From: Winogradskyella echinorum
Lineage (GTDB): Bacteria > Bacteroidota > Bacteroidia > Flavobacteriales > Flavobacteriaceae
Assembly: GCF_014297365.1 (NCBI RefSeq)
Contig: NZ_JACOQD010000002.1
Coordinates: 558,001-622,000 of the forward strand
Reading direction: 5' to 3'
DNA: 64,000 nucleotides
In this document: in pieces, positions 14,457 through 36,671 of the stretch
Position numbering within the stretch: position 1 is the stretch's first letter
How the letters are laid out: each line of letters begins with the position of its first letter
Made by a program: the position numbers and the translations under genes
Notes under the pieces: model-generated
Told to the model about the DNA's origin: nothing
Seen by the model: the letters and a program-made list of their open reading frames with translations, nothing else
The model's database searches: none

Positions 14457-14499
14457 TGATTAATATCATGTTTAAGCATTTTTTTTTGATTTAAATTTA
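14457..14499 (+). promoter_or_regulatory. FNR-type box plus -7 element for the USP gene at 14519
   Basis: The palindrome TGATTAATATCA lies at 14457-14468. The -7-like element TAAATTTA lies at 14492-14499, 29.5 nt from the box centre. The gene starts 20 nt further on. The spacing equals that of eleven other promoters in this window. Confidence 0.7.
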
Positions 14500-14518
14500 T
14501 AATCTACAATAAAATAAG

Positions 14519-15349
14519 ATGAGAAACATATTACTACTTACCGATTTTTCGAAAAATGCATTAAACGCCATACATTATGCAATCAACCTTTATGGAAGCA
14601 AATGTAAATATTACATTCTTCATGTAAAGCGTTCAACTTCATATACTACAGATGATATCTTAACCGCTGGAAATGAAAGTATTTACGATTCAATCTTTAA
14701 AAACGATAAAAATGAATTAGAAAGTGTAGTAACAGATTTAAAAAACAAGTTTCAACCAACAACATTGAATATTGAAACTATTATGGATTTCGATGTGTTA
14801 ACAGATGCTGTTAATCAGGTTGTGAAATCAAAAAATATAGATTTAGTTGTTATGGGAACAAATGGCGCTACTGGTGCCAAAGAGGTTATATTTGGAAGCA
14901 ATACCATTAACGTTATACGAAAGGTTAATTGCGATACACTCGTTATCCCTGAGAATTTTGAGTATAGAAAAATAAAAGAAATTGTTTTGCCTCTAGATGC
15001 TTTAGACTCTGTTATCGGCCAACCTTTTTCTCGAATTCTTGAATTTGTAAAAAGTTACGAGAGTAAATTACACCTTTTAAGAATTAACCAAAATGGAAGT
15101 ATTCCTAACTCACAACTTAGCGATAAAGAAGGTATAAATACACTTTCTAAAGAAATGTCGTATAGTTATAACATTATAAATAATATCCCTATGCATTACG
15201 CTGTGAGTGGATTTATTCAAACACAAAACATAGATTTAATGATACTTATAGAGCAAAAAGAATTAATGTTCGAGCGATTTTTTATGGGATCTACAACTAC
15301 CAAAATTGGTAATAACCTCACTGTTCCTCTTATGGTATTCCACAGCTAA
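14519..15349 (+). CDS. Universal stress protein, two-domain
   Basis: A 276-residue UspA-family protein. The first domain (about 1-145) starts LLTDFSKNALNAI and holds the ATP-binding motif G-2x-G-9x-G-S (GTNG...FGS) at about residues 115-129. The second half is a divergent Usp fold that has lost this motif. Two-domain USPs of this size are characteristic of Bacteroidota and are usually induced by starvation, low oxygen or redox stress. This copy stands alone on the plus strand, separated from its five relatives at 19.9-25.4 kb, but has the same FNR-type promoter. The minus-strand lipoprotein gene downstream converges on it. Confidence 0.9.
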   Translation: MRNILLLTDFSKNALNAIHYAINLYGSKCKYYILHVKRSTSYTTDDILTAGNESIYDSIFKNDKNELESVVTDLKNKFQPTTLNIETIMDFDVLTDAVNQVVKSKNIDLVVMGTNGATGAKEVIFGSNTINVIRKVNCDTLVIPENFEYRKIKEIVLPLDALDSVIGQPFSRILEFVKSYESKLHLLRINQNGSIPNSQLSDKEGINTLSKEMSYSYNIINNIPMHYAVSGFIQTQNIDLMILIEQKELMFERFFMGSTTTKIGNNLTVPLMVFHS

Positions 15350-15399
15350 AAAGCTAGAATAGACTAACTTGTGAAGAAATCTGTTAATCCATTAAGATT

Positions 15400-16035
15400 T
15401 TATTCAATCTTGGCTATAATTTGTTCTTCCTCCAATACTTCAACAGCTAATTTAACATAATCCTTAACTGTCTTTTTAATGGCTCTAGGATCTGCTATAT
15501 TAATGTACCCTTTCCAAATAAGCTGCCTTGCTTTTGTTGGGCAAATACAATAAATTGAGGTTTCTGCATTATAGATAGTGTATTTTTCAATGTTATTGGG
15601 ATTATAATAACTCTCTTCATACATTAAATAATCATCCTTAAATTGTCTATAGGTTTGCTCATAGGATTTAAAATTTAATAAGTAGCGACTCTTATTTTCA
15701 ATACCGATTATTTTCGTTAGGATAATTGTGTCGTAACCTTCTTTTGTGAGTTTACTTTCTAAATTTTCTAACTCAGCCTCAGTTAATATTTCTGTTTGAG
15801 AAGTAGTATCTAGAATAATATGACCCATCATTACTTCATTGCCTCTAAGTTCTAACTCCTTCTTTAAGGCCATCTCAAATTCTTGCTTAGCCACTTCATC
15901 TGAAGTTAAGCCAACCACTAAAACTTTATATGGGTCGTAAATACCAATATCTGGATTCTTCCAACTATCCACTAATCTTGCTGAAGAACAACTTGTTAAG
16001 ATTACAGAAAATATAAGTAGTGTGATTTTTTTCAT
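15400..16035 (-). CDS. Putative lipoprotein of unknown function (DUF4136-like features)
   Basis: A 211-residue protein starting with a lipoprotein signal: hydrophobic residues 5-14 and lipobox L-T-S-C (Cys16). The mature region SSARLVDSWKNPD resembles the opening of DUF4136-type lipoproteins, with alternating strands and a K-V-L-V-V-G-L strand near residue 38. No catalytic motif is visible. It follows the 149-residue coiled-coil gene by 14 nt, suggesting co-transcription. The position beside hsp20 and among USPs suggests an envelope-stress role, but that is inference. Confidence 0.7.
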   Translation of the reverse strand: MKKITLLIFSVILTSCSSARLVDSWKNPDIGIYDPYKVLVVGLTSDEVAKQEFEMALKKELELRGNEVMMGHIILDTTSQTEILTEAELENLESKLTKEGYDTIILTKIIGIENKSRYLLNFKSYEQTYRQFKDDYLMYEESYYNPNNIEKYTIYNAETSIYCICPTKARQLIWKGYINIADPRAIKKTVKDYVKLAVEVLEEEQIIAKIE

Positions 16036-16049
16036 GGGTTTATTTTAAC

Positions 16050-16499
16050 TTATTTTCTATCTAGTAATCTCCTATTCTTTTCATCCTTTTTAATCGTCTT
16101 AATAATATCAAAAAGTTGCTTTTTTAGCATTATATAATCTTTTTTGAATTGATTTACCTCCACGATTATGCCTCTATGTTCTTTTTTGTAGGCCTCTTCT
16201 TGCTTAGGCTGGTCTATGCCATCTAACATTATTTCTAATTCATTTTCATGCACTTTTAAAGCTTCAATTAAAAGATTGTTCTTTTTTTGTGATCTATTTA
16301 TGGCATCAATGATTTCTTTATTGTGCGAAAATTTTTCTGGATCAATCATCTGTAAGGTGTATGATTTTATAAGATCCTCGAAAAACAAATGTTCATCTCT
16401 TATAAACCTTAACTCAGATAACCAATCTTGAGAATGTTTGTGCATTTCCTCTGCACTTAACCACTCTATATAGCGCGCTTGTGTTTGTATCGTTTTCAT
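16050..16499 (-). CDS. Hypothetical helical cytoplasmic protein
   Basis: A 149-residue, charged, almost entirely helical protein with no signal or membrane segment. Heptad-like stretches from about residue 85 to 145 suggest a coiled coil. The first third has 'WLSAEEMHKHSQDWLSELRFIRDEH', which looks like an amphipathic helix pair. I recognise no family. It sits between hsp20 (64 nt upstream, with a terminator hairpin in the gap) and a lipoprotein gene (14 nt downstream). Leakage through the hairpin could place it partly under the hsp20 promoter. Confidence 0.65.
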   Translation of the reverse strand: MKTIQTQARYIEWLSAEEMHKHSQDWLSELRFIRDEHLFFEDLIKSYTLQMIDPEKFSHNKEIIDAINRSQKKNNLLIEALKVHENELEIMLDGIDQPKQEEAYKKEHRGIIVEVNQFKKDYIMLKKQLFDIIKTIKKDEKNRRLLDRK

Positions 16500-16515
16500 A
16501 ATATCTATTTTAAAT

Positions 16516-16556
16516 AAAAAAGCAGAAAGTAGTCCTTAACACTACCATCTGCTTTT
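16516..16556 (-). terminator. Terminator hairpin downstream of hsp20
   Basis: Interrupted stem: 16518-16526 pairs with 16548-16556 (AAAAGCAGA) and 16529-16533 with 16541-16545 (GTAGT). Read leftward it ends in a run of T. It lies between hsp20 and the 149-residue gene and would attenuate read-through. Confidence 0.75.
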
Positions 16557-16563
16557 GTAATTG

Positions 16564-17016
16564 TTAAAGAACTTCAATAACCTTTTTAGTTGTTTCTTTA
16601 ACTTCTTCTTTTTTCTGAAGATTTAGCTTTAGAATACCGTTTTCATAACTTGCCATAACATCCTGATCCGTATTTACAGTTTTTGGAAGTTTCAATGATC
16701 TTTTAAACGAATTGTAACTAAATTCTCTGCGAGTGTAGTCCTCTTTTTTTTCTTCAGATTCTTTCTGTTTTTCACCGCATACTTTTAGCATATTGTCCTC
16801 AATGGTGACCTCAAAATCCTTTTTAGAAAATCCTGGTGCTGCAAATTCAATTTCAAAATCATCCTCATGTTCTTTTACGTTCATTGCAGGCATTAAACTG
16901 TCTTCTTCAAAAAAGTCATCGTTAAAAAAATCATCACTGCTTAAAAAGCTTTTTAAGCTATCATTATTCCAGGAAGGGAATAATCTGTTTCTGTTGTTAA
17001 ATTTAATAAGTGACAT
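16564..17016 (-). CDS. Hsp20/alpha-crystallin small heat-shock protein
   Basis: A 150-residue ATP-independent holdase that keeps unfolding proteins soluble. The alpha-crystallin domain spans about residues 43-140. It opens 'MNVKEHEDDFEIEFAAPGFSK', contains the strand pair around 'DNMLKVCGE', and ends with the family signature A-S-Y-E-N-G-I-L-K-L-N-L (about residues 125-136). The acidic N-terminal arm has repeated Phe-Asp patches (DDFFNDDFFEED), as in other bacterial class A sHsps. Its promoter carries an FNR-type box, paralleling the alpha-crystallin HspX in the mycobacterial DosR regulon. Confidence 0.95.
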   Translation of the reverse strand: MSLIKFNNRNRLFPSWNNDSLKSFLSSDDFFNDDFFEEDSLMPAMNVKEHEDDFEIEFAAPGFSKKDFEVTIEDNMLKVCGEKQKESEEKKEDYTRREFSYNSFKRSLKLPKTVNTDQDVMASYENGILKLNLQKKEEVKETTKKVIEVL

Positions 17017-17053
17017 AATTTTAAATTTATTTGATTAAACATTTTATCTATTA

Positions 17054-17096
17054 TAAAATTAAATCACTGAACAAGAATATAAAATGATAAATATCA
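17054..17096 (-). promoter_or_regulatory. FNR-type box plus -7 element for hsp20
   Basis: The box TGATAAATATCA lies at 17085-17096 (half-sites TGATA/TATCA). On the minus strand the -7-like element TAATTTTA lies at 17061-17054, 29.5 nt from the box centre. The hsp20 start is 38 nt downstream of the -7 element. Confidence 0.7.
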
Positions 17097-17204
17097 GCTT
17101 AATAGCATAATTTTAAATTGAATTTAAAACTTTTTTAAACTACCTAGTAAGCAGCTGTTTTTGGGCTAATTCTTAAACTTTATATATTACTATTGTCATA
17201 GTTT

Positions 17205-18578: not shown

Positions 18579-18588
18579 ATTTTTTGTT

Positions 18589-19917: not shown

Positions 19918-20772
19918 TTAATTTCTTAAATCATGCATCACTAGTATCGGAACTTTAGAATGAAATGATATACTTTTCACTAAAGGATCAGTTAAAATAC
20001 TTCCAAAAAATGCATGTTTTTTATTAATAAATGCTACCATATCACTATCACGACTCTCAACAAAAATGTTTATGGCGGTTTCTACCGAATTATGCGACAG
20101 GAAATGGGTTTTATGTTTTGTTTCACCTAAAATTTCTTCAAGCAATTGCTTGTTTTCTTTTTGCTCTTTGCTTAACTCATCTGCTTCTGAAACATGAAGC
20201 ACAATTACTGTGGCATCAGATTTTTTAGCAATCTCTGTGAGATATATTAATTCTCTTCTTTTATAATGTGTTTTATAGCTAGTAGGAAATACAATCTCTT
20301 TTGGCATTATAGACTTTGCATTGAGCGGCACAACTATTACAGGACAGTTTCGTACTTTTTCCATAACGTATGTTGCAGTACTACCAAATGCTGTAGCTCT
20401 TGAGTAAGTTTCACCTTTCGTGCCCATAATAACCATTTCTATATCCTTTTTTTCAACTACATCTTTTATAGCTTCTAGAGTATTGTTAAATACAGAGATG
20501 GTTTTAAAGTTGTGTTTGGGGTTTGGATCTACCGTCATTGTAATCATATCTTGAATTTTTGCCAAACCATCTTCTGAATTTCGCTTGGCAGTTTCATATA
20601 GTTCACTACCAGGCTCCATATTCATTAGGCTTTTCATTAAATTGCTTGTAGCAGAAAAAACATTCAGCAAATAAAAATCACAAGAATCATTTTTATATAA
20701 TTGAATTGCATATCGTAATGCTTTATTGGCATTTTTAGAAAAATCTGTTGGTATTAAAATTTTATGTCTCAT
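19918..20772 (-). CDS. Universal stress protein, two-domain
   Basis: A 284-residue UspA-family protein beginning MRHKILIPTDFSKNANKALRYAI. The ATP motif is intact in the first domain (GTKG-9x-GS, about residues 117-131), followed by 'VRNCPVIVVP'. The second domain (about 160-284) keeps the fold but not the nucleotide motif. It heads an operon with the small eRF1-like gene 12 nt downstream. Upstream, its FNR-type box overlaps the 3' end of the next USP gene, so the two USP genes are closely spaced yet separately promoted. Confidence 0.9.
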   Translation of the reverse strand: MRHKILIPTDFSKNANKALRYAIQLYKNDSCDFYLLNVFSATSNLMKSLMNMEPGSELYETAKRNSEDGLAKIQDMITMTVDPNPKHNFKTISVFNNTLEAIKDVVEKKDIEMVIMGTKGETYSRATAFGSTATYVMEKVRNCPVIVVPLNAKSIMPKEIVFPTSYKTHYKRRELIYLTEIAKKSDATVIVLHVSEADELSKEQKENKQLLEEILGETKHKTHFLSHNSVETAINIFVESRDSDMVAFINKKHAFFGSILTDPLVKSISFHSKVPILVMHDLRN

Positions 20773-20791: not shown

Positions 20792-20834
20792 TAAAGTTAT
20801 GTCATCTCATAGGTTATTTAAATGACATTCATCA
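20792..20834 (-). promoter_or_regulatory. FNR-type box plus -7 element for the USP gene ending at 19918
   Basis: Read on the minus strand, the box is TGATGAATGTCA (20834-20823) and the -7-like element is TAACTTTA (20799-20792), again 29.5 nt apart centre to edge. The box overlaps the stop codon of the upstream USP gene. Its half-sites are weaker than in the other copies. Confidence 0.55.
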
Positions 20835-21665
20835 GCTTACACAAGGAATTACTAAAAAAGGAACTGTGGGATGAAATCCAATTTTCTTTATTATGGGTTC
20901 TTTTACTAAACTTTCAATAAAACTATGCTTGTAATTAATCATAACAAGTATATCAATGTTAAGCTCTTCAATGAAGTCATTGATTTCTTGGGTTTTTTTA
21001 GCGTAATCTGGCATCCAATGAAAACTATATTCATAGTTTTTTAAATATGTTTTTAGCATTGTGTAATTGTAGTCTTGCAATTTTGTCAATTTTTCTTCCT
21101 TGTTGATATGAACAATTCTTATCTTAGAATTATAGAGTTCTGCTAGTCGTTTTAACGGAAGTATTTCTTGGTCATAAAAACGATTAAAACCAGTAGAGAA
21201 AGCAATTTGTTTTGGTTCTTCAAAATCAAACTCATCTGGTACTATTAATACCGGACAACGGCTCACTTTTTTTATTATATTAACTGTATTACTGCCAAAT
21301 AGAAACTCTTTAGCGCCTGTTGCTCCTTTAGTACCCATTACTACTAAATCTATATGGTGCTTATCTAAAGCACTATCAATGGCATCGTCTAAACTAAAAC
21401 TACTTAGTAAAATTTCGAATTCGTGATTAGCATTTGCATTACTATTTACTGCCATTTCCTTTAATTCTTTTAAATCTTTCATGGCATTATCTGACATAGT
21501 GTTTAGTAATTTATTTGAAATACTAGACATTGTAGAAATTTTCATTTTTAGAGAATGCAGAAAATAGAATTTACACTCTTCATTGGCATATAGTTTTAAT
21601 GCATAAACAGCAGCGCTCCAGGCATTATCTGAAAAATCTGTGGGTAATAGAATATTTTTTTTCAT
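20832..21665 (-). CDS. Universal stress protein, two-domain
   Basis: A 277-residue UspA-family protein. It starts MKKNILLPTDFSDNAWSAAVYAL. The ATP-binding motif G-2x-G-9x-GS is complete (GTKGATGAKEFLFGS, about residues 116-130), then 'VSRCPVLIVPDEF'. The second domain contains 'IDILVMINYKHSFIESL', a variant of the position where active domains carry the glycine motif, so it is probably structural. The gene has its own FNR-type promoter and no downstream partner in the same transcription unit that I can define. Confidence 0.9.
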   Translation of the reverse strand: MKKNILLPTDFSDNAWSAAVYALKLYANEECKFYFLHSLKMKISTMSSISNKLLNTMSDNAMKDLKELKEMAVNSNANANHEFEILLSSFSLDDAIDSALDKHHIDLVVMGTKGATGAKEFLFGSNTVNIIKKVSRCPVLIVPDEFDFEEPKQIAFSTGFNRFYDQEILPLKRLAELYNSKIRIVHINKEEKLTKLQDYNYTMLKTYLKNYEYSFHWMPDYAKKTQEINDFIEELNIDILVMINYKHSFIESLVKEPIIKKIGFHPTVPFLVIPCVS

Positions 21666-21688: not shown

Positions 21689-21731
21689 GTAAATTACTGC
21701 TTTCTTTTAGGATAAAACATGATATAGATCA
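21689..21731 (-). promoter_or_regulatory. FNR-type box plus degenerate -7 element for the USP gene ending at 20832
   Basis: The box is TGATATAGATCA at 21720-21731. The sequence at the expected -7 position on the minus strand is TAATTTAC (21696-21689), a looser match to TAnnTTTG than in the sister promoters, at the same 29.5-nt distance. Confidence 0.6.
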
Positions 21732-21739: not shown

Positions 21740-22585
21740 CTATGATTGAGATGGCATAACTAGAAATGGCACATTTAAATGGAAACCAATTTGATTAATG
21801 GTATTTTTAAAAAATAAGTTTTCAAAAAATGAGTGCTTATTATTTATCATTACCAAAAGATTTATCTTATGTTTAATCTGAAATTCATTAATGGCATTCA
21901 TTAAATTCATGGTTCTAACATCATGAAATAAATAAGCAGAATCCTTAAACATTGCTTTTAATTTTGATTTATTTCTTTTCTGTAAGTCCGTAAGCTCATA
22001 TCCTGTAGAAACATGCATTGTATTTAATCTAGCATGATTAGTTTTTACTAATTGCTTTAAAATTTTGAGTTCAGAATGTTTGTATGAGGCTTCGAGATCT
22101 GTTGGGAATAAAATTTCGTGTGGTGCTTCAAATTCAAAATCGGATGGAATTGCCAAAACAGGGCACTTAATTTCCTTAAATACATGCACCGTATTTGAAC
22201 CAAATAAGACTTCTTTAGCACCAGTAGCCCCTTGAGTGCCCATAACTACAAGATCTACATCATAGGTTTCTATAAATTCTTTTATACCTGCAATGAGGGT
22301 GTCAAATCTTGAGTATGTTTCAAACTTATGATTTGGATTATCACCAAACTTATCGTTAATGTTTTGGTTAATTTTATTTAAATTATTTTGAGATGTACTT
22401 CTTACGGCATCACCAAGACCAAATTGTGCTGGATATCCTAGCACGTATTCCACGTTATAGATTACAGGTGTGTAGGCATTAAATAAATGAAAAGTACATT
22501 CTTCATCTTTAAATAATTGAATTGCATAAGTAATTGCATTCCATGAATTATCTGAAAAATCGGTGGGTAAAAGAATATGTTTCAT
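21740..22585 (-). CDS. Universal stress protein, two-domain
   Basis: A 281-residue UspA-family protein (MKHILLPTDFSDNSWNAITYAI). The first domain has the intact ATP motif GTQGATGAKEVLFGS followed by 'IKCPVLAIPSDFEFEAP'. The second domain has 'HKINLLVMINNKHSFFENLFF' where the nucleotide motif would be. It starts 17 nt after the preceding USP gene (22603-23451) with no box in the gap, so the two form an operon under one FNR-type promoter. It is closest in sequence layout to the 20832-21665 copy, suggesting local duplication. Confidence 0.9.
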   Translation of the reverse strand: MKHILLPTDFSDNSWNAITYAIQLFKDEECTFHLFNAYTPVIYNVEYVLGYPAQFGLGDAVRSTSQNNLNKINQNINDKFGDNPNHKFETYSRFDTLIAGIKEFIETYDVDLVVMGTQGATGAKEVLFGSNTVHVFKEIKCPVLAIPSDFEFEAPHEILFPTDLEASYKHSELKILKQLVKTNHARLNTMHVSTGYELTDLQKRNKSKLKAMFKDSAYLFHDVRTMNLMNAINEFQIKHKINLLVMINNKHSFFENLFFKNTINQIGFHLNVPFLVMPSQS

Positions 22586-22602: not shown

Positions 22603-23451
22603 TTAAAATCGAGCTGTATTTTGCATAGCTAACAAAGGTATTTTTAACCCAAGGCTTACCTTATCGATATTAGAGGGAAACAACATATCTTCTAAAAATG
22701 AGTGTTGCGTATTTACCATAGTGAGTATATCGATGTCTTTTTCTTCAATATAGGTTTTAATAACGTCTGCAATTTTCTTACTTTCTTCGTGGTAAAAGTT
22801 TACATCGTTTTCACTTAAGGCATCTTCAATAAATGACTTATTATCTTCTTGTCTGATAGAAAGTTTTTGACTTGTAGAAACATGCAAAACATTAATCTTA
22901 CTCCTATAAGGTTTTGCCAAAATAGAAAGCAGTTTAAGCTCTCGACGCTTATAAGGCATCATAAAATTTGATGGAAATAATATATTTTTAGGTTGTGTAT
23001 TGGTATAATTAGAAGGAATAGCCAAAACAGGACACTTTACATATTTTAAAACTTGAAACGTCTGACTGCCAAAAACAATATGTCGCTCATCTGATTTACC
23101 TTTAGTACCCATAACTATTAAATCTATGTTTTTACCATCTGCAATAAGATTTGCTTCTTCGACTAGCGTATTGTATGCAGATATTGAATGAAAGATAAAC
23201 CTAGGATGAGGAGCTATTTTTTTAACCTTACTTATAAGGTTTTCTAAATTAGCGTGAGATTCATTTCTTATATTATCTAAAACGTCATTAAATACTTCAC
23301 GTGAGGTTAAATCATCATGGTCATAAAACTCATTTTGATATGCATGCATAAAGTAGAACGTCGTTCTTTGGTATTTAAAAAATTCTAGTGCATATTTAAT
23401 AGCATTCATAGAATTTTCTGAAAAATCCGTTGGTAATAGAATAGATAGCAT
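22603..23451 (-). CDS. Universal stress protein, two-domain
   Basis: A 282-residue UspA-family protein and first gene of a two-USP operon. The ATP motif is present (GTKGKSDERHIVFGS, about residues 115-129) but the spacer differs from the ATGAKE form of its neighbours, so it is the more divergent paralogue. It ends with 'LGLKIPLLAMQNTARF'. Its promoter carries the most perfect palindrome of the series (TGATATATATCA). Confidence 0.9.
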   Translation of the reverse strand: MLSILLPTDFSENSMNAIKYALEFFKYQRTTFYFMHAYQNEFYDHDDLTSREVFNDVLDNIRNESHANLENLISKVKKIAPHPRFIFHSISAYNTLVEEANLIADGKNIDLIVMGTKGKSDERHIVFGSQTFQVLKYVKCPVLAIPSNYTNTQPKNILFPSNFMMPYKRRELKLLSILAKPYRSKINVLHVSTSQKLSIRQEDNKSFIEDALSENDVNFYHEESKKIADVIKTYIEEKDIDILTMVNTQHSFLEDMLFPSNIDKVSLGLKIPLLAMQNTARF

Positions 23452-23476: not shown

Positions 23477-23519
23477 TAAATTTAATCTCTTAAAAACTTA
23501 AAAACTATGATATATATCA
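23477..23519 (-). promoter_or_regulatory. FNR-type box plus -7 element for the two-USP operon
   Basis: The perfect 12-bp palindrome TGATATATATCA lies at 23508-23519. On the minus strand the -7-like element TAAATTTA lies at 23484-23477, 29.5 nt from the box centre. Confidence 0.72.
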
Positions 23520-23589: not shown

Positions 23590-23892
23590 TTACAGATAAG
23601 GTTTTAGTATTCCTTTTCTTTTTTCTAACTGTTTTTGCAAATCGCTAATTGTGTTCTTTACAGCTAACTCATAATTTTTTTCATTAGAAGCTGCAAATAT
23701 CCTTGGACCATTAACGCTTAATTCTATTTCACAAATTTTACCATTACCTTTTGGGTCGTTTTCCTTTTTAAAAAACACTTCTGCGTTAATCAGTGTATCG
23801 TACTTTTTATTTAAACTTTTAAGTTTCTTTAATGTATAATCATCAAGAGTTTCACTTGTTTTTAAATTAACAAATTGAATACTAGTTTTCAT
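23590..23892 (-). CDS. hpf: Ribosome hibernation-promoting factor (HPF/RaiA family), short form
   Basis: A 100-residue protein of the S30AE/HPF family, which binds the 30S decoding centre and stops translation in resting cells. It has the expected beta-alpha-beta-beta-beta-alpha layout: MKTSIQFVNLKTSETLDDYTLKKLKSLNKKY, then basic strands (VFFKKEND, ICEIELSV) and a C-terminal helix ending LEKRKGILKPYL. There is no long C-terminal dimerisation tail, so this is the short type. It has its own FNR-type promoter with a consensus -7 element, linking ribosome hibernation to the same signal as the USPs. Confidence 0.92.
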   Translation of the reverse strand: MKTSIQFVNLKTSETLDDYTLKKLKSLNKKYDTLINAEVFFKKENDPKGNGKICEIELSVNGPRIFAASNEKNYELAVKNTISDLQKQLEKRKGILKPYL

Positions 23893-23918: not shown

Positions 23919-23961
23919 CAAATTTATCTTAATTACGATGTTAATGAAATGATATTTGTCA
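23919..23961 (-). promoter_or_regulatory. FNR-type box plus consensus -7 element for hpf
   Basis: On the minus strand the box is TGACAAATATCA (23961-23950) and the -7 element is TAAATTTG (23926-23919), a full match to the Bacteroidota TAnnTTTG consensus. The centre-to-edge distance is 29.5 nt. Confidence 0.72.
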
Positions 23962-24114: not shown

Positions 24115-24501
24115 TTATAGCGGTATAATACTATAGACTACATTAAGCAAAAAAATACCAACGAAGAATAGTAGTGTATAAATGACTTGTACCATTTTTA
24201 TATTAATAATTTCTAGCCATTTAACCGTTAGTTTTGGAAACATAAATAAGGCCAATCCTAAAAACAATGATGACCAACCAATAAGTGTAATAATCAATGT
24301 GTAGTTTGGCTCCCAAATGTTATGGAACAACACATTTAGCAATCCAACAATAATGGCCATAAAAGAAAAGATGATTAAAAATTTTTCATCTTTTAAATCG
24401 TTGAATATTTGTTTTATACGCTTTGGGTTAAGGCTTAATATTAAAAAGAAAATAATTAGATACCATCCCCAAAATTGTGCTAAAAATATAGAACTGTCCA
24501 T
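24115..24501 (-). CDS. Small four-helix membrane protein, unknown function
   Basis: A 128-residue hydrophobic protein with about four transmembrane helices (near residues 5-24, 40-62, 68-88 and 103-124) separated by short charged loops such as NPKRIKQIFNDLKDEK. No conserved catalytic motif is visible. It starts 12 nt after the upstream USP gene and therefore shares that gene's FNR-type promoter. A terminator follows. Its place suggests a membrane partner in the same stress response, but no function can be assigned. Confidence 0.75.
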   Translation of the reverse strand: MDSSIFLAQFWGWYLIIFFLILSLNPKRIKQIFNDLKDEKFLIIFSFMAIIVGLLNVLFHNIWEPNYTLIITLIGWSSLFLGLALFMFPKLTVKWLEIINIKMVQVIYTLLFFVGIFLLNVVYSIIPL

Positions 24502-25375: not shown

Positions 25376-25418
25376 CAAATCTAAAACGATGGGTGATTTT
25401 AAAATATGATATTGGTCA
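25376..25418 (-). promoter_or_regulatory. FNR-type box plus consensus -7 element for the USP-membrane operon
   Basis: Minus-strand box TGACCAATATCA (25418-25407), identical to the box at 32108. The -7 element TAGATTTG (25383-25376) is a full consensus match. The distance is 29.5 nt. The site sits just downstream of the response-regulator gene. Confidence 0.75.
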
Positions 25419-25444: not shown

Positions 25445-26497
25445 TTAGTAAATTTCTTGTAGTTTTTGAAGATCTAAAACTTTAATATTTCTACCTTCCA
25501 TTTCTATAAGTCCTTGTTTTTTAAAAACTGAAATTGTTCGTATTAAAGTTTCTGTAGCAATACCTGCCACACTTGCTAAATCATTACGAGATATTCTAAT
25601 TGGATCATCTGGCTTTGCATTTATCTTTTCTGCAAACCGAAGAATAGTTGAAGCTGTTTTCTTTTGAACTGAGCTATATGCCATTTGTAATAATTGATCT
25701 TTAACTCCCTCTATATCATTTGTTAATAACTGCATTACCTCAAGTGTTACTTTATGGTTGTTATTTAGAACATCTGTGAGCTCTGTCTTTGATACACCTA
25801 CCATCTCAGTATCTTCCATTGCAACAGCAGTTTCTTTGTAGGGTACGTTTTGAGTAAAGGATGTATAACCAAATAAATCGTCTTCCTTATGTAACCCAGT
25901 AGTAAGTTCCTTGCCACTTTCATCAAATTTATAGCATCGTACTACTCCTTTACTTATAAGATAAATATAGTTTGAGTTCTGCCCTTCTTTGTAAATGATA
26001 TCGTTTTTACTAAAATTATAAACCGTACCATTATCGTCTAAAAAATTTTTTAAATCGTTTAAGGTTCTTATTTCTTCATCTGTATCTGATGATGAATTTT
26101 GTAGTGATTCTCGTTCCTCTTTTAAAAGTGCAGCTTTAGCAATTCTACTTTCAATAGCACTTATAATTTCATCTTCGGTAAAAGGCTTAGTAATATAATC
26201 ATCTGCACCAAGGTCCATACCTTTTCTAACATCTTGGCGTTCCGTCTTCGCTGATAAAAATATAAATGGAATAAACTTTGTTTCATTGTTTTTAGAGAGC
26301 GCTTCTAATACACCGTAACCATCCAATATAGGCATCATAATATCACACACCACAATATCTGGCTTATGATTTTTCGCCATTTCTACACCAATTTGTCCAT
26401 TGCTAGCTGTTAATACTTTGTAGTCTGACAATTCTAATAACTCTGCAGTATTTTCTCTTAAAACAGTATCGTCTTCTATTAATAATATAGTTTTCAT
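25445..26497 (-). CDS. Response regulator: receiver domain fused to Crp/Fnr-type cNMP-binding and HTH domains
   Basis: A 350-residue regulator. Residues 1-120 are a receiver domain with acidic pocket E8-D9-D10, phospho-acceptor D52 (VVCDIMMP) and the conserved K-P-F near 102. A linker helix leads to a cyclic-nucleotide-binding fold (about 160-280) and a Crp-type HTH (about 300-350). In the recognition helix, A-T-E-T-L-I-R places E316 and R320 where FNR has the Glu and Arg that read the TGA of its site. There are no clustered cysteines, so it is not an Fe-S FNR. The start codon overlaps the kinase stop by 4 nt, so the two are co-translated partners. I infer that it binds the TGAT-N4-ATCA boxes of this region. 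Confidence 0.9.
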   Translation of the reverse strand: MKTILLIEDDTVLRENTAELLELSDYKVLTASNGQIGVEMAKNHKPDIVVCDIMMPILDGYGVLEALSKNNETKFIPFIFLSAKTERQDVRKGMDLGADDYITKPFTEDEIISAIESRIAKAALLKEERESLQNSSSDTDEEIRTLNDLKNFLDDNGTVYNFSKNDIIYKEGQNSNYIYLISKGVVRCYKFDESGKELTTGLHKEDDLFGYTSFTQNVPYKETAVAMEDTEMVGVSKTELTDVLNNNHKVTLEVMQLLTNDIEGVKDQLLQMAYSSVQKKTASTILRFAEKINAKPDDPIRISRNDLASVAGIATETLIRTISVFKKQGLIEMEGRNIKVLDLQKLQEIY

Positions 26498-27999
26498 GGT
26501 TGTGCTTTGTTGGGAAGTTCTATGACAAATGTAGACCCTTTATGTTCTTCGCTTGTAAAGGAAATGGTTCCATTTAAATTTTCTAAATGATCTTTTACGA
26601 TATTCAATCCAATACCTGTGCCCTGCATCAATAGTGCATTTTCTGCTCTAAAATAACGATTAAAAATGTTTTTCTGATCTTTTGCAGGTATTCCTATTCC
26701 GTTATCTATAACTTTGAAAATTGTAGTACTTTCATTCTGCGAAATCTCAACATCAATAATCGTATTTTCCGATGAATATTTAATGGCATTATATATAAGG
26801 TTAGACAATGCCAATTCTAATATTTTTTCATCTTGATACATAGCCATGTGATCAATATTTTCTGGGTAATTAATCTGCTGACCATCTTTTAAAAGCATGT
26901 TAGCATTGTAAATAACTTCATTTAAAACCTTACTTAATTTAAAGTTACTAAACTTGTAATTAATCTTTCCTTTCTCTAACTTCTCTACAGAAAGAAAATC
27001 ATTTAAAATAGTATTGAGATATTGAACTTTCTCAGTTATAGTTTTTATATGCTTCTCTCGTTTATCTTGTTGCTCGCTCAACTTGTATTTACTCAATAAC
27101 ATGGTAGAAGTTAAAATACCACTTAAGGGTGTTTTAAATTCATGAGATACCATTGATAAAAATTTAGTCTTAAGATCATTGAGTTCTTTTTCAGCATTTA
27201 AAGCCGTTTTTAATTCCTCTGTTCTAATATCTACAGTTTTCTCTAGTCGTTCTGTATAGTTTTTTTGTTCTGTGATGTCTAAAATAATAGCGAAAAAAAC
27301 ATCTCTATCACCTAATTTAGACCGTTGCAAATGTACATAGGCAGGATAAGTGCTACCAGATTTTCGTTGGTGTACAGTTTCAAACTCAATTTTTTCAGTA
27401 TTCTCTTTGTCTAATAAAGCTATCTCTTCCCTAAACTGCGATTCGGTATAATTTGGTTTTATATCCAAAGGAGTCATGGTTTGCAACTCTTTTAACGAAT
27501 ATCCTATATTTTTTTGTGCACCATGATTTACATTTATAAATTTGAGCGTTTTAGCATCAAAAACGTAAATCTCGTTTAGTGATTTAAGAATAATATTCGC
27601 TAAATGATTTTTTTCTTGCTCTAATTTTTTACGCTCTGTAACATCAATCACCAAAGCCATAACAAAATTTTTACCATAAACGGTAAAAGGATTTAAACCC
27701 GCTTCAATCGGAAATTTGCTACCATCCTTATGGGCTCCAAAAATATCACGTCCTTGTCCCATTCTTCGACGATGTTGCTTTTTGATAAAGCCATCGAAAT
27801 GAGCACCATGTTCAGCATGATAATTTTGTGGTATTAATATATTTAATGGTTGATTTATAAGCTCATCTGTCTCATATCCAAACATTTTATTGGCAGAATC
27901 ATTTGTTTCAACAATATTTTGGTGTTTATCAACTATAATAACACCTTCAGATATAGAACCTAAAAGCAATTTGAATATATCTTGATCTTGTCGAAACAT
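26494..27999 (-). CDS. Two-PAS sensor histidine kinase with FixL-like first PAS
   Basis: A 501-residue soluble kinase with no membrane segment. PAS1 covers about 8-125, PAS2 about 135-250, a coiled linker 245-275, the HisKA domain has H285 in FLSMVSHEFKTPLSG, and HATPase boxes (NAIKYS, DNGIGIP, GTGIGLNIV) follow. In PAS1, H64 (IPQNYHAEH) and R84 (MGQGRDIFGAHKDG) align with the haem-ligand His and distal Arg of FixL (H200/R220 in Bradyrhizobium) and keep the same 20-residue spacing. Haem binding and O2 or NO sensing are therefore plausible but not proven. The gene overlaps the REC-Crp/Fnr gene and lies in the middle of the inferred regulon. Confidence 0.9.
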   Translation of the reverse strand: MFRQDQDIFKLLLGSISEGVIIVDKHQNIVETNDSANKMFGYETDELINQPLNILIPQNYHAEHGAHFDGFIKKQHRRRMGQGRDIFGAHKDGSKFPIEAGLNPFTVYGKNFVMALVIDVTERKKLEQEKNHLANIILKSLNEIYVFDAKTLKFINVNHGAQKNIGYSLKELQTMTPLDIKPNYTESQFREEIALLDKENTEKIEFETVHQRKSGSTYPAYVHLQRSKLGDRDVFFAIILDITEQKNYTERLEKTVDIRTEELKTALNAEKELNDLKTKFLSMVSHEFKTPLSGILTSTMLLSKYKLSEQQDKREKHIKTITEKVQYLNTILNDFLSVEKLEKGKINYKFSNFKLSKVLNEVIYNANMLLKDGQQINYPENIDHMAMYQDEKILELALSNLIYNAIKYSSENTIIDVEISQNESTTIFKVIDNGIGIPAKDQKNIFNRYFRAENALLMQGTGIGLNIVKDHLENLNGTISFTSEEHKGSTFVIELPNKAQP

Positions 28000-28091: not shown

Positions 28092-28134
28092 TGATAGATA
28101 TCATTTTTTTTAACAGAAAGCAACCATACATTTA
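28092..28134 (+). promoter_or_regulatory. FNR-type box plus -7 element for the TerB-like gene
   Basis: Box TGATAGATATCA at 28092-28103 and -7-like TACATTTA at 28127-28134, 29.5 nt apart. It lies in the divergent gap with the kinase gene, but no TAnnTTTG is present at the mirror position, so it should serve only the plus-strand gene. Confidence 0.7.
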
Positions 28135-28153: not shown

Positions 28154-28561
28154 ATGAAAACTAAAAAGAAAATGACTTTGAAATTTTACCAAAATCTAGG
28201 TAAATTGTTTTATGCCGTTGCGGCAACTGATGGAAATGTTAAACCAATAGAAATTGAAAAACTCAACACCTTTGTAAAAAAATATTGGTTAGATATAGAT
28301 GATATTGAAGATGTATTTGGTATCGATGCTGCATACCAAATAGAAGTTGTTTTTGATTGGCTTAATTATGACGAAGAAATGGATGTGAATACTTGCTACA
28401 CTGATTTTGTATCCTATAAAAATGAACAGAGCCATTTATTTACTGAGGAAGTAAAGAAATTAATTTTAAAAACTAGCTCAGCAATAGCTCACGCTTTTTC
28501 TGGTATTAATAAATCGGAATTAATGCTAATAGCAAAATTAGATATAGAATTAAAAAAGTAA
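28154..28561 (+). CDS. TerB-like tellurite-resistance/stress protein
   Basis: A 135-residue all-helical cytoplasmic protein. The segment [23 protein letters not shown] (about residues 13-35) matches the TerB opening, in which an A-x-D-G-x-V-x-x-x-E metal-binding pattern follows a helix. A second acidic segment '[15 protein letters not shown]' comes near residue 75. TerB domains sense or bind divalent metals in stress responses, and the role here is unknown. It is divergent from the two-component genes and behind an FNR-type promoter. It is followed by deoD with 46 nt between, so the two may be co-transcribed. Confidence 0.7.
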
Positions 28562-28607: not shown

Positions 28608-29306
28608 ATGAGCATTCATATTGAAGCAAAAAAAGGAGAAATTGCTGAAACAGTATTATTACCAGGTGACCCAATGCGCGCCAAATGGATAGCAGAAACA
28701 TTTTTTGAAAACCCTAAATGCTACAACAATGTTAGAGGTATGTTAGGTTATACGGGTTTATATAAAGGAAAACGCGTGTCGGTTCAAGGAACTGGTATGG
28801 GAATTCCATCTGCACTAATCTATTGTCATGAGCTTATTAATGAGTATGGCGTTAAAAACTTAATACGTGTTGGCTCAACCGGATCTTACCAAAAAGACGT
28901 AAAAATTCGTGACATAGTAATTGCTATGGCAGCGTCATCTACTTCTGGCATCAATAATTCGCGATTTATAAATGCGGACTATTCCCCTACTGCCAATTTT
29001 GAATTATTTTTAAATGCAGCTCTATATGCAAAGGATAACAACATTCCTATAAAAGCTGGCAATGTACTCTCTGCAGACGAGTTTTATGATGATGATTTTG
29101 ACAGCTATAAAAAATGGGCAGAATTTGGTGTGTTATGTGTAGAAATGGAAACCGCAGGATTATATACCATCGCAGCAAAGTTTAATGTTAGAGCATTGTC
29201 TATTTTAACGGTTTCAGATTCATTAGTAACTAAAGAGCGCACCTCAGCTGATGAGCGAGAAAGCACATTTAATACTATGGTTGAGATTGCATTGAATTCT
29301 GTATAG
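28608..29306 (+). CDS. deoD: Purine-nucleoside phosphorylase, DeoD type
   Basis: A 232-residue hexameric-type phosphorylase that splits purine (deoxy)nucleosides with phosphate for salvage. Visible family motifs: [14 protein letters not shown] (residues 18-31, phosphate site), GTGMGIPS (about 62-69), [12 protein letters not shown] (about 86-97) and the nucleoside-binding V-E-M-E-T-A-G-L-Y (about 177-185) followed by SDS. Length equals that of typical DeoD. Its position right after the TerB-like gene suggests a shared transcript from the FNR-type promoter, with no terminator in the gap. Nucleoside salvage would fit a non-growing state. Confidence 0.93.
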
Positions 29307-31457: not shown

Positions 31458-31500
31458 TGATATTTCTCATTTTCAGTGGGTTAATATTGTAATAATTTTA
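31458..31500 (+). promoter_or_regulatory. FNR-type box plus -7 element for the CDP-alcohol phosphatidyltransferase gene
   Basis: TGATATTTCTCA at 31458-31469 (one deviation in the right half-site) and TAATTTTA at 31493-31500, 29.5 nt from the box centre. The gene starts 17 nt after the -7 element. Confidence 0.6.
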
Positions 31501-31517: not shown

Positions 31518-32105
31518 ATGCTCACATTCAAAAATTATAACATTGCAGACTGGTTTTCATTTTATCGGATTATTGCAGCGCCAGTATTATTAACACTCAT
31601 TTGGTTTGATTTACGCTTAATATTCACATGGTTTTTACTCATTAGCTATTCTACAGATGCTATAGATGGGTATTTAGCGCGTAAGCTAAAAATTACCAGC
31701 CCAAGAGGTTCTCAACTCGATTCCTTTGGTGACCAAATAACATTAATTGTTGGTTTAATAGGGTTGTTTTATTTTGAAAATGCTTTTATAAAAACCAATT
31801 TTGTTTTAATTATTATAGCTTTCGTGCCATACATTATTCAAATGTTTATTGCCTACTTTAAATATGGAAAAGCTACAGCATTTCACACCTATTTAGCAAA
31901 ATTATCTGCTATAGTGCAAAGTGTTTTTATCTTATGGTCATTATTCTTTTCTCCCGAATATTCATTGTTTTATATTATGATTGCTATTGGGCTATTAGAA
32001 ACCTTTGAGGAAATTACACTCATTTTTATGTACAGAAATTGGGCATCTGACGTAAAAGGCATTTATTGGGCACTACGAGACAAACGTCGTCTTAAAAATA
32101 AGTAA
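31518..32105 (+). CDS. CDP-alcohol phosphatidyltransferase family membrane enzyme
   Basis: A 195-residue membrane protein with about six helices. The full active-site motif D-G-2x-A-R-8x-G-3x-D-3x-D is present at D50, G51, A54, R55, G64, D68 and D72. These enzymes move a phosphatidyl group from CDP-diacylglycerol to an alcohol (glycerol phosphate, serine, inositol and others), and the acceptor cannot be read from the sequence. It has its own FNR-type promoter, adding phospholipid synthesis to the predicted regulon alongside the patatin lipase and MlaEFD. Confidence 0.9.
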   Translation: MLTFKNYNIADWFSFYRIIAAPVLLTLIWFDLRLIFTWFLLISYSTDAIDGYLARKLKITSPRGSQLDSFGDQITLIVGLIGLFYFENAFIKTNFVLIIIAFVPYIIQMFIAYFKYGKATAFHTYLAKLSAIVQSVFILWSLFFSPEYSLFYIMIAIGLLETFEEITLIFMYRNWASDVKGIYWALRDKRRLKNK

Positions 32106-32107: not shown

Positions 32108-32150
32108 TGACCAATATCATAGATAATAACTTCGATTCTAAATAATTTAG
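32108..32150 (+). promoter_or_regulatory. FNR-type box plus -7-like element for the PNPOx-like gene
   Basis: TGACCAATATCA at 32108-32119, directly after the previous stop codon, and TAATTTAG at 32143-32150, 29.5 nt from the box centre. The last four bases of the -7 element are off consensus at one position. Confidence 0.6.
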
Positions 32151-32172: not shown

Positions 32173-32628
32173 ATGATTAGATCATTAAACCAAAAGGAAA
32201 ACACAAAAATATTAGCATCAAATTATATAGGTAATTTATCCTATATTTATAGAGATAGACCTTATGTAGTGCCAATAACTTACTTTTTTGACACTGAAAA
32301 CAATATTATAATAGGCTATTCTGGGGAGGGACATAAAATTAACGCGATGCGCAAAAACCCAAATGTATCGCTATCCGTTTCGGAAGTTGATTCAGTAAAT
32401 TCCTGGAACTCGGTTCTTGCTCAAGGAACCTATGTAGAACTTTCTGGAAGTGATGCTAAAGCGCAACTACATATTTTTTCTTTAGGGGTTAAAGATTTAG
32501 TCATCAATAAAGAACACAGAAAATTAGATTTTATTAGTGAATTTTCAAGCAAAATTTATAAGGACGAATTACCAATTATTTTTCAGATTAAAGTTGAAGA
32601 GATTACTGGTAAAATGCGACGAAATTAA
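32173..32628 (+). CDS. Pyridoxamine 5'-phosphate oxidase-like FMN-binding protein
   Basis: A 151-residue split-barrel flavoprotein. The strand R-D-R-P-Y-V-V-P-I-T-Y-F (about residues 30-41), the central 'IIGYSGEGHKINAMRKNPNVSLSV' (about 51-74) and 'WNSVLAQGTYVEL' match the PNPOx-like family with nitroimidazole-resistance and FMN-binding relatives. It is probably a flavin-dependent reductase or sensor rather than a true PdxH, which is longer. It has an FNR-type promoter. Small PNPOx-like proteins are also frequent in the mycobacterial hypoxia regulon. A lipoprotein gene follows 19 nt later. Confidence 0.85.
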   Translation: MIRSLNQKENTKILASNYIGNLSYIYRDRPYVVPITYFFDTENNIIIGYSGEGHKINAMRKNPNVSLSVSEVDSVNSWNSVLAQGTYVELSGSDAKAQLHIFSLGVKDLVINKEHRKLDFISEFSSKIYKDELPIIFQIKVEEITGKMRRN

Positions 32629-34005: not shown

Positions 34006-34019
34006 CCTTAAAATTTAAG

Positions 34020-35009
34020 TCAATCTTTGTTTTTTGCTTCCTTTTTCTCTTGTCGTTCCAACCTCTTAAAATAACCTCGTGTTAAAAAGTTATGTTTTAA
34101 TGCTTCCATATTCTGATTAAATTTATCTGTACCTTCATTAATATTATTTAGAGTAGATTTTAAACTATTCACTAAAGTTGTATCCTTTACAAAATAATTA
34201 TAGGCACCTTCACTAGAATTAAAATCATTAACTACTGAATTTATGTTTTTGAGAACACTTTCAATTTCTAAACTTGAAGTTTCAAGATGTGTAACTATAT
34301 CTTTTAACTTTTTACCTGAAAGAGTATCGTTAAGTAACATGCCTAAAATAGTTCCATCATCCGTTTTAATATTAGAAATAATAGAATTAAGTTCTGCAAT
34401 AGAATTGGAAGCACCATAACTGGCATATTTAAGGTTGGTTACAGATTGTTTTAGGTCTTGTGCCATAATGGTATCGTTGAGCAAAATGCCAATAGTTCCT
34501 TTACCTTTTGTAATGCTATTAGTAATTTTAAGCAAATCTGAAGTTAATATCGCTGCATTTTCAGTACTTGTATTGAGTGTATTAAGAATATCGTCAGTAC
34601 CTATTTTACTGTAAGATTCTATAGTAGTATTATTTTCTATCATTTCAGAAATCCCTTTACCTGGTACAATATTTACTATCATGTTTCCAACCAACCCGTC
34701 TGAACCAATCGTTGCAATAGCATTTTTTTTAATGTGTGAAATAATTTTCTCTTCAATCGATAATTCTACTTTTATGGTTGAATCGTTAACCATCATAATA
34801 TCTTTAACCGTACCGATATCAATACCCGAGTATCTTACATTATTACCTTTTTGTAACCCATTAACATTTTGAAAGTAAGAATTGATGACAAATGTTTTTT
34901 TAAACATATCTTCTCGTTGACCAACCAGATAAACACCTGCAATAAATAGAATGGTTCCTATAAGAACAAATATGCCTAGTCTTAGTTTTTGAGCATTTGA
35001 TTTTTTCAT
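34020..35009 (-). CDS. mlaD: MlaD/MCE-domain lipid-binding protein
   Basis: A 329-residue protein. The ATG at 35009 is chosen since it opens with basic residues and one transmembrane helix (LRLGIFVLIGTILFIAGVYLVG, about 9-30) and sits 4 nt after mlaF; an upstream in-frame start would overlap mlaF. The MCE domain (about 35-120) has 'FQNVNGLQKGNNVRYSGIDIGTVKDI'. After it come repeated helical segments with three copies of a 'G-T-I-L-G/I-L-L-N-D-T' motif, probably a coiled tube as in Bacteroidota MCE proteins. It shuttles phospholipids between inner and outer membranes with MlaE and MlaF. Confidence 0.9.
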   Translation of the reverse strand: MKKSNAQKLRLGIFVLIGTILFIAGVYLVGQREDMFKKTFVINSYFQNVNGLQKGNNVRYSGIDIGTVKDIMMVNDSTIKVELSIEEKIISHIKKNAIATIGSDGLVGNMIVNIVPGKGISEMIENNTTIESYSKIGTDDILNTLNTSTENAAILTSDLLKITNSITKGKGTIGILLNDTIMAQDLKQSVTNLKYASYGASNSIAELNSIISNIKTDDGTILGMLLNDTLSGKKLKDIVTHLETSSLEIESVLKNINSVVNDFNSSEGAYNYFVKDTTLVNSLKSTLNNINEGTDKFNQNMEALKHNFLTRGYFKRLERQEKKEAKNKD

Positions 35010-35013
35010 AATA

Positions 35014-35775
35014 TTAGTGTTTAAAAAAGGCTTTAATTTTAGAGTCTTCGGAATTTGATAATTCTTCATATGATCCAACAGCATAATCAATACCATCTAT
35101 AAGTAATAACATTCTATCTGAAATAACTCTTGCACAATCCACATCATGGGTAATAATTAGTGATGAGGTGTTATATTTCTTCTGAATATCTTGCATTAAA
35201 ATGATGATTTCTTTTGCTGTGATTGGGTCTAACCCACTTGTAGGCTCATCATAAAGAATGATTTTTGGTTGTAGAATTAGAGTCCTTGCTAAGGCAACAC
35301 GACGTTTCATTCCGCCAGACAATTCCGAAGGCATTAAATCGACAGTATGGGCCAAACCAACATTCGTTAAAGCTTCCATTACCAAGTCTTCAGTATTGAG
35401 ATTTACGCTCATCTTCTTTTTGTGACGTCGTAATGGAAATTCTAAATTCTCACGAACCGTCATAGAATCATACAGAGCACTACCTTGAAATAGAAATCCG
35501 ATATCTGCTCTCAAAATATCTAAAGCTTCTTGTGTTAATTTGGTAATATCATTTTGCATAACTGTAATAGAACCACTATCAGCTTCGATTAAACCTACTA
35601 AACATTTAATCATTACCGATTTCCCTGAACCCGATTTACCCATAATGACCAAATTTTCACCTTGATAAAGTTTCATATTAAAGCCATTCAATACATCATT
35701 GTCTCCAAAACTTTTATACAAATCTTTAATTTCTAAGACTATATTTTTGTTTAATATGTTTGTTATTTCACTCAT
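35014..35775 (-). CDS. mlaF: MlaF-type phospholipid ABC transporter ATPase
   Basis: A 253-residue ATPase. Walker A is GKSGSGKS (about 45-52), the signature is LSGGMKRRVALARTL (about 150-164), and Walker B is IILYDEPTSGLDP, followed by the H-loop ITHDVDCA. The 'GLDPITAKEI' form is typical of the MlaF/Ttg2A group. It is the middle gene of mlaE-mlaF-mlaD: it overlaps mlaE by 4 nt and is followed by mlaD after 4 nt, so the three are tightly coupled in translation. Confidence 0.93.
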   Translation of the reverse strand: MSEITNILNKNIVLEIKDLYKSFGDNDVLNGFNMKLYQGENLVIMGKSGSGKSVMIKCLVGLIEADSGSITVMQNDITKLTQEALDILRADIGFLFQGSALYDSMTVRENLEFPLRRHKKKMSVNLNTEDLVMEALTNVGLAHTVDLMPSELSGGMKRRVALARTLILQPKIILYDEPTSGLDPITAKEIIILMQDIQKKYNTSSLIITHDVDCARVISDRMLLLIDGIDYAVGSYEELSNSEDSKIKAFFKH

Positions 35776-36554
35776 AAATCGTAAAAAATATCAGTTACAA
35801 AAACGGCCATAAAATCAATAATGAACAATAATAAAGAACTTATAACAACAGCTGAATTCGCAGCCTTACCTACTCCTTCGGTACCTTTTGCACAATAATA
35901 GCCTTTATAACAGCCCACAATACCAATGGCCAATCCGAAAAAGAAGGATTTAATAGTTGCTGGAAAAATATCACCAAACTCTATTGCTTCAAAAACTTGA
36001 TTAAAATAGAGTGTAAACGATACATTTCCTTTTAGATTTTCAACTAAAAATGAACCAAACAAAGCAATGGCATCTCCAATGATTACTAATAAAGGCAGCA
36101 TTAACGTAACTGCTAACACTCTAGTAACAACAAGATATTTAAATGGATTTGTACCAGAGACCTCCATAGCATCAATTTGTTCGGTAACACGCATTGAGCC
36201 TAACTCAGCACCAATGCCAGAACCAATTCTACCAGCACACACTAAAGCTGTGATTATCGGACCTATTTCTCTTACTATAGATATACTAACCATAGATGGC
36301 ATCCAAGATGCAGCACCGAATTCCATTAAGGTTGGTCGTGTTTGTAAATCCAAAACCAACCCAATAATAAAACAAGTAATTCCAACTAATAACAAGGAAC
36401 GATTGCCCATATTATAACATTGGCGCAATAACTCTTTTGTCTCAAAGGGGAACTTAAAACTTTCCTTAAAAAAGCGAGTCGTAAAATAAGATAAATCACC
36501 AAGCTCAATTAAGAACGTGTTTACCTGACTTATCATTTTTGAAATATTCAACAT
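35772..36554 (-). CDS. mlaE: MlaE-type phospholipid ABC transporter permease
   Basis: A 260-residue integral membrane protein of the MlaE family with five to six helices. Signature segments: 'ISIVREIGPIITALVCAGRIGSGIGAELGSMRVTEQIDAMEVSGTNPFKYLVVTR' (about 93-147) and the C-terminal 'GKAANSAVVISSLLLFIIDF'. It forms the inner-membrane core of the Mla lipid transporter, first gene of the operon. Its promoter shares the intergenic region with the divergent patatin gene and contains a consensus TACATTTG -7 element with an FNR-type box upstream. Confidence 0.93.
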   Translation of the reverse strand: MLNISKMISQVNTFLIELGDLSYFTTRFFKESFKFPFETKELLRQCYNMGNRSLLLVGITCFIIGLVLDLQTRPTLMEFGAASWMPSMVSISIVREIGPIITALVCAGRIGSGIGAELGSMRVTEQIDAMEVSGTNPFKYLVVTRVLAVTLMLPLLVIIGDAIALFGSFLVENLKGNVSFTLYFNQVFEAIEFGDIFPATIKSFFFGLAIGIVGCYKGYYCAKGTEGVGKAANSAVVISSLLLFIIDFMAVFVTDIFYDL

Positions 36555-36574
36555 CGCGGATTCTATAGTATAAT

Positions 36575-36617
36575 CAAATGTATTGTAATAGCGCGTTTTG
36601 CAAAATGATATAAATCA
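36575..36617 (-). promoter_or_regulatory. FNR-type box plus consensus -7 element for mlaEFD
   Basis: Minus-strand box TGATTTATATCA (36617-36606) and -7 element TACATTTG (36582-36575), full consensus, 29.5 nt apart. It is the left member of a divergent pair of sites whose centres are 23 bp apart. Confidence 0.75.
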
Positions 36618-36628
36618 TATCCATAGAC

Positions 36629-36671
36629 TGATATAAATCATTATTATTAAAGACTTTACTACATATATTTG
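36629..36671 (+). promoter_or_regulatory. FNR-type box plus consensus -7 element for the patatin gene
   Basis: Box TGATATAAATCA at 36629-36640 and -7 element TATATTTG at 36664-36671, full consensus, 29.5 nt apart. The left box of the pair has the same sequence on the plus strand. Confidence 0.75.

Follow-up and report, generated by a model that had tools for sequence, protein, structure and literature searches.

What ties together a cluster of stress and lipid-handling genes in a 64 kb stretch of the 3.78 Mb genome of Winogradskyella echinorum (G000:C3:558001-622000, 32% GC; the whole stretch analysed is called the window in the following) is the question raised by a palindrome, TGAY-N4-RTCA, which stands before twelve promoters, all of them between 14.4 and 36.7 kb. 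A first-pass annotation had read these sites as a local FNR-type regulon with one rigid promoter geometry, and had proposed the regulator encoded at 25445-26497 as its activator. As will be argued, the boxes are quite probably the operators through which Flavobacteriaceae control a low-oxygen regulon of FNR/FixK type, with two activators probably acting on the same operator. The spacing of the sites, their recurrence in relatives, their co-occurrence with regulators and the likeness of the two recognition helices were computed directly.

The spacing of box and promoter element

A strict site was defined as TGAY-N4-RTCA-N23-TAnnTTTR, the gap being the number of nucleotides between the end of the box and the TA-initial -7 element. 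The simplest answer, i.e. that a common AT-rich palindrome happens to lie beside common AT-rich -7 elements, draws something from the box taken alone, which is only 2.4-fold more frequent in the window than in shuffled DNA (12 exact boxes, 11 of which within 14.4-36.7 kb, against a mean of 5.0). The spaced pair, however, exceeds the shuffles about 1000-fold: the region contains 9 pairs at gap 23, against a mean of 0.008 and a maximum of 1 in 500 dinucleotide shuffles, and the remainder of the window has one box and no pair, in keeping with the earlier observation that the combination is confined to this part of the window. Over the whole genome, with both strands and gaps of 10-38 considered, 43 pairs are found: 16 at the single favoured gap of 23 and, at the remaining gaps, 0-4 apiece, with the highest count at gap 27. 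The reversed pattern used as a control yields 29 pairs summed over all gaps. Nine of the 16 gap-23 pairs lie inside 0.59% of the genome (chance about 1e-16).

The same spacing prevails in relatives. Ten named loci, which are those with at least 71% identity among 34 loci found by means of the receiver-Crp fusion protein of the window (REC-CRP), come from Arcticiflavibacter, Psychroflexus, Winogradskyella (two), Kordia (two), Mariniflexile, Psychroserpens, Tenacibaculum and strain ALC-1; together they hold 55 pairs at gap 23 and at most two at any other gap from 5 to 45. In 37 genomes bearing the genus label of the window, its own genome included, 776 sites were counted, against 41 for the reversed pattern. 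Chance or base composition is rejected by the shuffles and the gap spectra, which leave it a vanishingly small probability, and the scan of genome and shuffled DNA suggested by the first-pass annotation thus turns out in favour of a preferred spacing. The recurring layout in related genera may represent a shared low-oxygen switch, worked by two different regulators.

Architecture of the promoters

Read site by site, the TA-initial element begins exactly 23 nucleotides past the box at 12/12 sites, and the twelve boxes, their positions, the single deviation at 31458 and the distance of 29.5 nucleotides from box centre to -7 element were all recovered as first described. Nine sites are fully strict; the box at 31458, TGATATTTCTCA, carries the one deviation (with TAATTTTA as its -7 element), and those at 21720 and 32108 have weaker -7 ends (TAATTTAC and TAATTTAG, respectively). 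Each of the twelve boxes is oriented toward a gene.

A centre at -41.5 is the position of a class II activator. If the starts are as in Flavobacterium psychrophilum, for which passages of PMC9723704 place a TAnnTTTG element at -12 to -5, the box centre, fixed at 29.5 nucleotides before the -7 element, would lie at -41.5 from the predicted starts. With +1 set 12 nucleotides after the T of TA, the predicted leaders measure 13-33 nucleotides at 11/12 promoters, and the twelfth fits when the ATG at 36696, not the listed TTG at 36669, is taken as the gene start.

The four bases adjoining the box, where the upstream TTTG element would stand, are never TTTG at the twelve sites (0/12, as claimed) and are so in only one case among 64 sites (55 from the named loci and 9 from the window), whereas both tRNA promoters in the window have TTTG-N19; at the 36606 promoter, TTTG is present one base off (N18). 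The proposal of a class II-type pattern replacing the upstream element is supported, as far as sequence goes: what look like Crp/Fnr-type operators occupy the place of TTTG at a rigid distance, much more often than chance would give, and do so again in related genera. The equation of the core with the Escherichia coli FNR box, TTGAT-N4-ATCAA, had to be restricted: the inner 12 bp agree, but both outer bases are found in 0/64 sites, by which the E. coli consensus is rejected as a description of the box. In the same set the base following TCA is T in 64/64 sites, and the base preceding TGAY is C in 35, A in 24, T in 3 and G in 2.

Two candidate activators

Four proteins with an HTH_Crp_2 domain are encoded in the genome. 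One is REC-CRP (25445..26497, minus strand), a candidate activator composed of a receiver, a cNMP-type sensor and a Crp helix-turn-helix, the gene of which overlaps by 4 bp that of a PAS-PAS histidine kinase (26494..27999, minus strand) with a FixL/DosP-like first PAS. Another, an FNR-like protein, is encoded at G000:C4:112109, adjoining the cbb3 operon. These two have in common the recognition-helix motif T-E-x-x-I-R and identical predicted DNA-contact residues, and with such matching helices they are the likely users of the operator. The C1 and C8 Crp proteins, which do not have the motif, were discarded as users on account of their different recognition helices, although they could still serve single sites.

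In the FNR-like protein, for which NCBIfam Fnr is the best model with a score below the cut-off, the first two cysteines and a central one, which align with those of Aliivibrio FNR, are kept in 19/20 aligned orthologs; a further cysteine, at another place, is found in 13/20, three of the four cluster-type cysteines being aligned. In REC-CRP, the Asp-Ile-Met-Met-Pro motif and the recognition helix are kept in 14/14 orthologs.

No TTTG-N18-20 promoter for the kinase gene was found ahead of 27999. A gap-23 site lies at the expected kinase gene start in L020 (13429-13471, annotated) and at G001:C2:65884-65926 (by position only), and none does in the window; the two sites suggest autoregulation of the kinase and REC-CRP.

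Sites and regulators across genomes

All 35 of the 37 genomes with at least one of the two regulators have sites, and the two with neither have none (0 and 0). The median number is 24 (range 13-58) in the 23 genomes with both, 9 (range 3-19) in the 10 with the FNR-like protein only and 14.5 in the two with REC-CRP only (18 and 11 sites). With 0, 1, 2 and 3 copies of REC-CRP (matches at 1e-40), the median rises from 7 to 19, 37 and 53 (rho 0.83). Among 23 further order-level genomes, the 12 with an FNR homolog have 85 sites and the 11 without have 5, many of the latter genomes being small. In seven of the 37 genomes (G002, G005, G016, G019, G029, G032 and G033), REC-CRP has one or two additional paralogs, 41-49% identical to the window protein, and each of these genomes has 26-58 sites.

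The view that the regulator at 25445-26497 is the sole activator is incompatible with 10/37 genomes that are without REC-CRP but with the FNR-like protein, which has the same contact residues, and that retain sites. It could then be supposed that two separate circuits exist, with the cluster sites reserved to REC-CRP and those elsewhere to the FNR-like protein, the shared box being no more than a family resemblance. Indeed, the off-cluster sites of W. echinorum have more often G or A within the box and TGTT-type flanks (3/7), and the FNR-only genome G007 has just three sites, namely those of the reductase, ccoN and hemN. Such a division is nevertheless unlikely, since G028, also FNR-only, keeps sites before a Usp1 ortholog and a Usp4-like gene, the helices of both proteins have identical contact residues, and gap 23 is seen with either regulator: in scans of gaps 13-33, it accounts for 28/108 pairs in four of the ten FNR-only genomes (G007, G024, G025 and G028), for 11/30 in the REC-only genome G015 and for 0/36 in the genomes with neither. 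In G015, which encodes REC-CRP and neither the FNR-like protein nor ccoN, the cluster is kept together with its sites.

Genes under the sites

On the plus strand of the window, sites are found at 14457..14499 (ending in TAAATTTA), as promoter of the Usp gene 14519-15349; at 28092..28134 (TACATTTA), before the 135-amino-acid gene 28154-28561, followed by the PNP-type gene 28608-29306; at 31458..31500, with the deviant box, before the CDP-alcohol phosphatidyltransferase-type gene 31518-32105; at 32108..32150, with the weak TAATTTAG, before the PNPOx-like gene 32173-32628; and at 36629..36671 (TATATTTG), before a patatin-like gene, the start of which is probably at 36696. On the minus strand, the site at 17054..17096 (box 17085, TAATTTTA) belongs to the Hsp20 gene 16564-17016; three others lead to Usp genes, i.e. 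20792..20834 (box 20823, TAACTTTA) to 19918-20772, 21689..21731 (box 21720, with the weak TAATTTAC) to 20832-21665, and 23477..23519 (box 23508, TAAATTTA) to 22603-23451 and 21740-22585. Further on this strand, 23919..23961 (box 23950, TAAATTTG) precedes the S30AE/HPF-type gene 23590-23892; 25376..25418 (box 25407, TAGATTTG) the Usp gene 24514-25353 and the small gene 24115-24501; and 36575..36617 (box 36606, TACATTTG) the MlaE-ABC-MlaD operon 34020-36554.

By Pfam, the cluster thus encodes six Usps, Hsp20, a beta-CASP metallo-hydrolase, an ATP-cone/Mrr-type protein, a protein of S30AE/HPF type, a P-type ATPase, a CDP-alcohol phosphatidyltransferase, a PNPOx-like protein, a patatin and MlaE, ABC and MlaD components. 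Not every cluster gene has its own box, some being downstream in likely operons. The short open reading frames 28154-28561, 15400-16035, 16050-16499 and 24115-24501 gave no Pfam match at E 0.01; these four genes are conserved, with homologs in many of 16 related stretches.

In the sixteen stretches annotated, 13/14 loci that have REC-CRP and the neighbouring Usp gene show the site upstream of the latter (L059 being the exception), and 11/12 loci with both the kinase and the divergent 28154 homolog show the one upstream of this homolog; the exception is L020, in which a site precedes the kinase itself. The pair of divergent boxes at the MlaE operon is seen again in L062 and L117.

The regulon is not confined to this cluster. 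In disagreement with the label 'local' of the first-pass annotation, 7/16 gap-23 pairs of the genome lie elsewhere, before a 60-amino-acid open reading frame followed by ccoN/O (cbb3 oxidase); before hemN and a Usp; before a thioredoxin-reductase-type flavoprotein, read as ferredoxin-NADP reductase-like (NCBIfam matches below cut-off); before pta and ackA; before a 56-amino-acid open reading frame followed by a peroxiredoxin, a cydA-like gene (below cut-off) and cydB; before a TonB-type gene; and before a metallo-beta-lactamase-rhodanese gene (site at G000:C1:262939). A purely local regulon is rejected on this basis and, because several of these sites precede classic FNR-type targets, the cluster is to be seen as the place where a wider regulon is most dense. 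In F. psychrophilum, cbb3 and heme-biosynthesis genes are expressed more strongly when oxygen is limiting, according to passages of PMC9723704.

A possible mechanism and the nature of the signal

In the mechanism that we propose, a Crp/Fnr-family dimer would sit on TGAY-N4-RTCA centred at -41.5, replacing the TTTG (-33) element, and would recruit the main RNA polymerase to TAnnTTTR through a class II contact. One activator would be the global FNR-like protein, with its cysteines of iron-sulfur (Fe-S) type, and the other REC-CRP, switched by the co-encoded FixL-like PAS kinase. Their joint targets would include micro-oxic respiration (cbb3, hemN, cydAB) and pta-ackA and, for survival of hypoxia, the six Usps, Hsp20, HPF, PNPOx-like and lipid-handling genes. 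Binding, the oxygen response, the class II contact, phosphorylation, heme and the Fe-S cluster are features that we infer.

A more specific version, offered tentatively and held at somewhat short of an even chance, is that of a collapsed FixL-FixJ-FixK cascade, in which the receiver-CRP fusion, phosphorylated by a FixL-like oxygen-sensing kinase, would directly act as the class II activator and would share operator and fixed spacing with an Fe-S FNR-like protein. If so, oxygen would be sensed by two chemically different sensors acting in parallel on the same Bacteroidota promoters, and additional REC-CRP copies would enlarge the regulon.

Whether oxygen is the signal at all can be questioned, in that the PAS kinase and REC-CRP might sense stationary phase, redox state or starvation, with the oxygen genes as some of the targets only. 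Usps, Hsp20 and HPF count among the general stress genes, and the Arg matched to that of FixL is absent from 4/15 kinases. This alternative is nevertheless improbable, as the same operator stands before the cbb3, hemN and cydAB operons, and the first PAS of the kinase matches best, among solved relatives, the oxygen sensors FixL and DosP, to which it aligns free of gaps, with the aligned His kept in 15/15 (window and 14 orthologs). The aligned His and Arg are presumably the heme residues.

Several observations weigh against the reading of the boxes as operators of one low-oxygen regulon with two activators. Counts and correlations over the 37 genomes and the 23 further ones ignore kinship; there are only two REC-only genomes (one 83% complete) and only two with neither regulator (one 89% complete); and genome size also tracks site number, with rho 0.58 vs 0.83 for REC-CRP copies. 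The third FNR cysteine is off its E. coli place in the FNR-like protein, and the FixL-matched Arg is kept in only 11/15 kinases. The T following TCA is not universal, the seven off-cluster sites having five T and two C, with one further exception each in L022 and L024. As to the spacing, a single fixed geometry describes this genome and the ten named loci, but in the four FNR-only genomes scanned a further peak lies at gap 22 (19/108 pairs) and gap 14 has 11/108, and where both regulators are lacking gap 22 accounts for 4/36 and gap 27 for 7/36; thus, other users (another Crp-type one) or conserved coding matches exist. Gap 22, also seen in G020, which has neither regulator, may be the mark of another Crp-family regulator, centred one base nearer. 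Lastly, the membership of the G000:C1:262939 site is doubted, since it is flanked by C, another Crp gene is close by and G020 has a look-alike of it at gap 22; it probably belongs to a separate sulfur-related circuit. In L014 (G000:C1), the stretch 2454-4982 has the Crp-family gene near this C-flanked gap-23 site.

Comparison with known systems

The FNR class II regulon has boxes centred at -41.5 and targets such as hemN and terminal oxidases. The regulon proposed here resembles that of E. coli and Aliivibrio fischeri in its inner box, TGAT-N4-ATCA, in a centre that would lie at -41.5 from the predicted start, in the Cys pair and central Cys of the FNR-like protein and in such targets. It differs from that of E. 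coli in the absence of the outer T/A pair of the box, in the change of a helix Ser to Ile, in the place of the third Cys, in the Bacteroidota -7 element and in a second, receiver-fused activator; with the outer bases missing, the label of an E. coli-type FNR regulon is rejected.

With the FixL-FixJ-FixK systems of rhizobia and Burkholderia it has in common a FixL-like PAS kinase, an FNR/FixK-type operator and cbb3 and Usp targets; in Burkholderia, a FixK homolog under FixLJ and a Usp-rich lxa locus are described in passages of PMC6127331. Here, instead of a separate FixJ, the window protein and 14/14 aligned orthologs have receiver and Crp-type module in a single chain, for which reason the FixLJ-FixK label is also rejected; with both modules in one protein, the step of transcription from FixJ to fixK would be skipped.

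The gene content, with several Usps and a small heat-shock protein, and the operator that these genes share, as read from sequence, also recall DosR and lxa. Usps and a heat-shock protein under a low-oxygen system are reported in parts of PMC5069765, PMC6127331 and PMC9733578, the OsdR list includes a PNPOx gene (in the portion of PMC5069765 covered) and NmpR controls cbb3, hemN and a Usp (likewise for PMC11841059). The classes of regulator differ, being response regulators for DevR/OsdR, of NtrC type for NmpR and a separate FixK in Burkholderia, and here REC-CRP together with the FNR-like protein.

The open-licence PMC literature, large result lists of which were sampled in part, gave no recognised description of this geometry in Flavobacteriaceae or of a receiver-CRP regulator of Usps. 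The flavobacterial low-oxygen response is known by expression (PMC9723704), the covered parts of that paper naming no regulator and its main text having 0 occurrences of FNR and CRP. To this response the present work adds an operator, a promoter position and two candidate activators, and the pattern predicts regulon members in related genomes. If the proposal is true, it would provide a clear instance of class II activation at the unusual type of promoter used by Bacteroidota, and a receiver-CRP regulator would join the recurring theme of Usps and heat-shock proteins in hypoxia. The mode of action thus appears to be an FNR/FixK-like class II activation, set apart from known systems by the receiver-CRP fusion, the edges of the box, the Bacteroidota type of promoter and an operator that two regulators appear to share.

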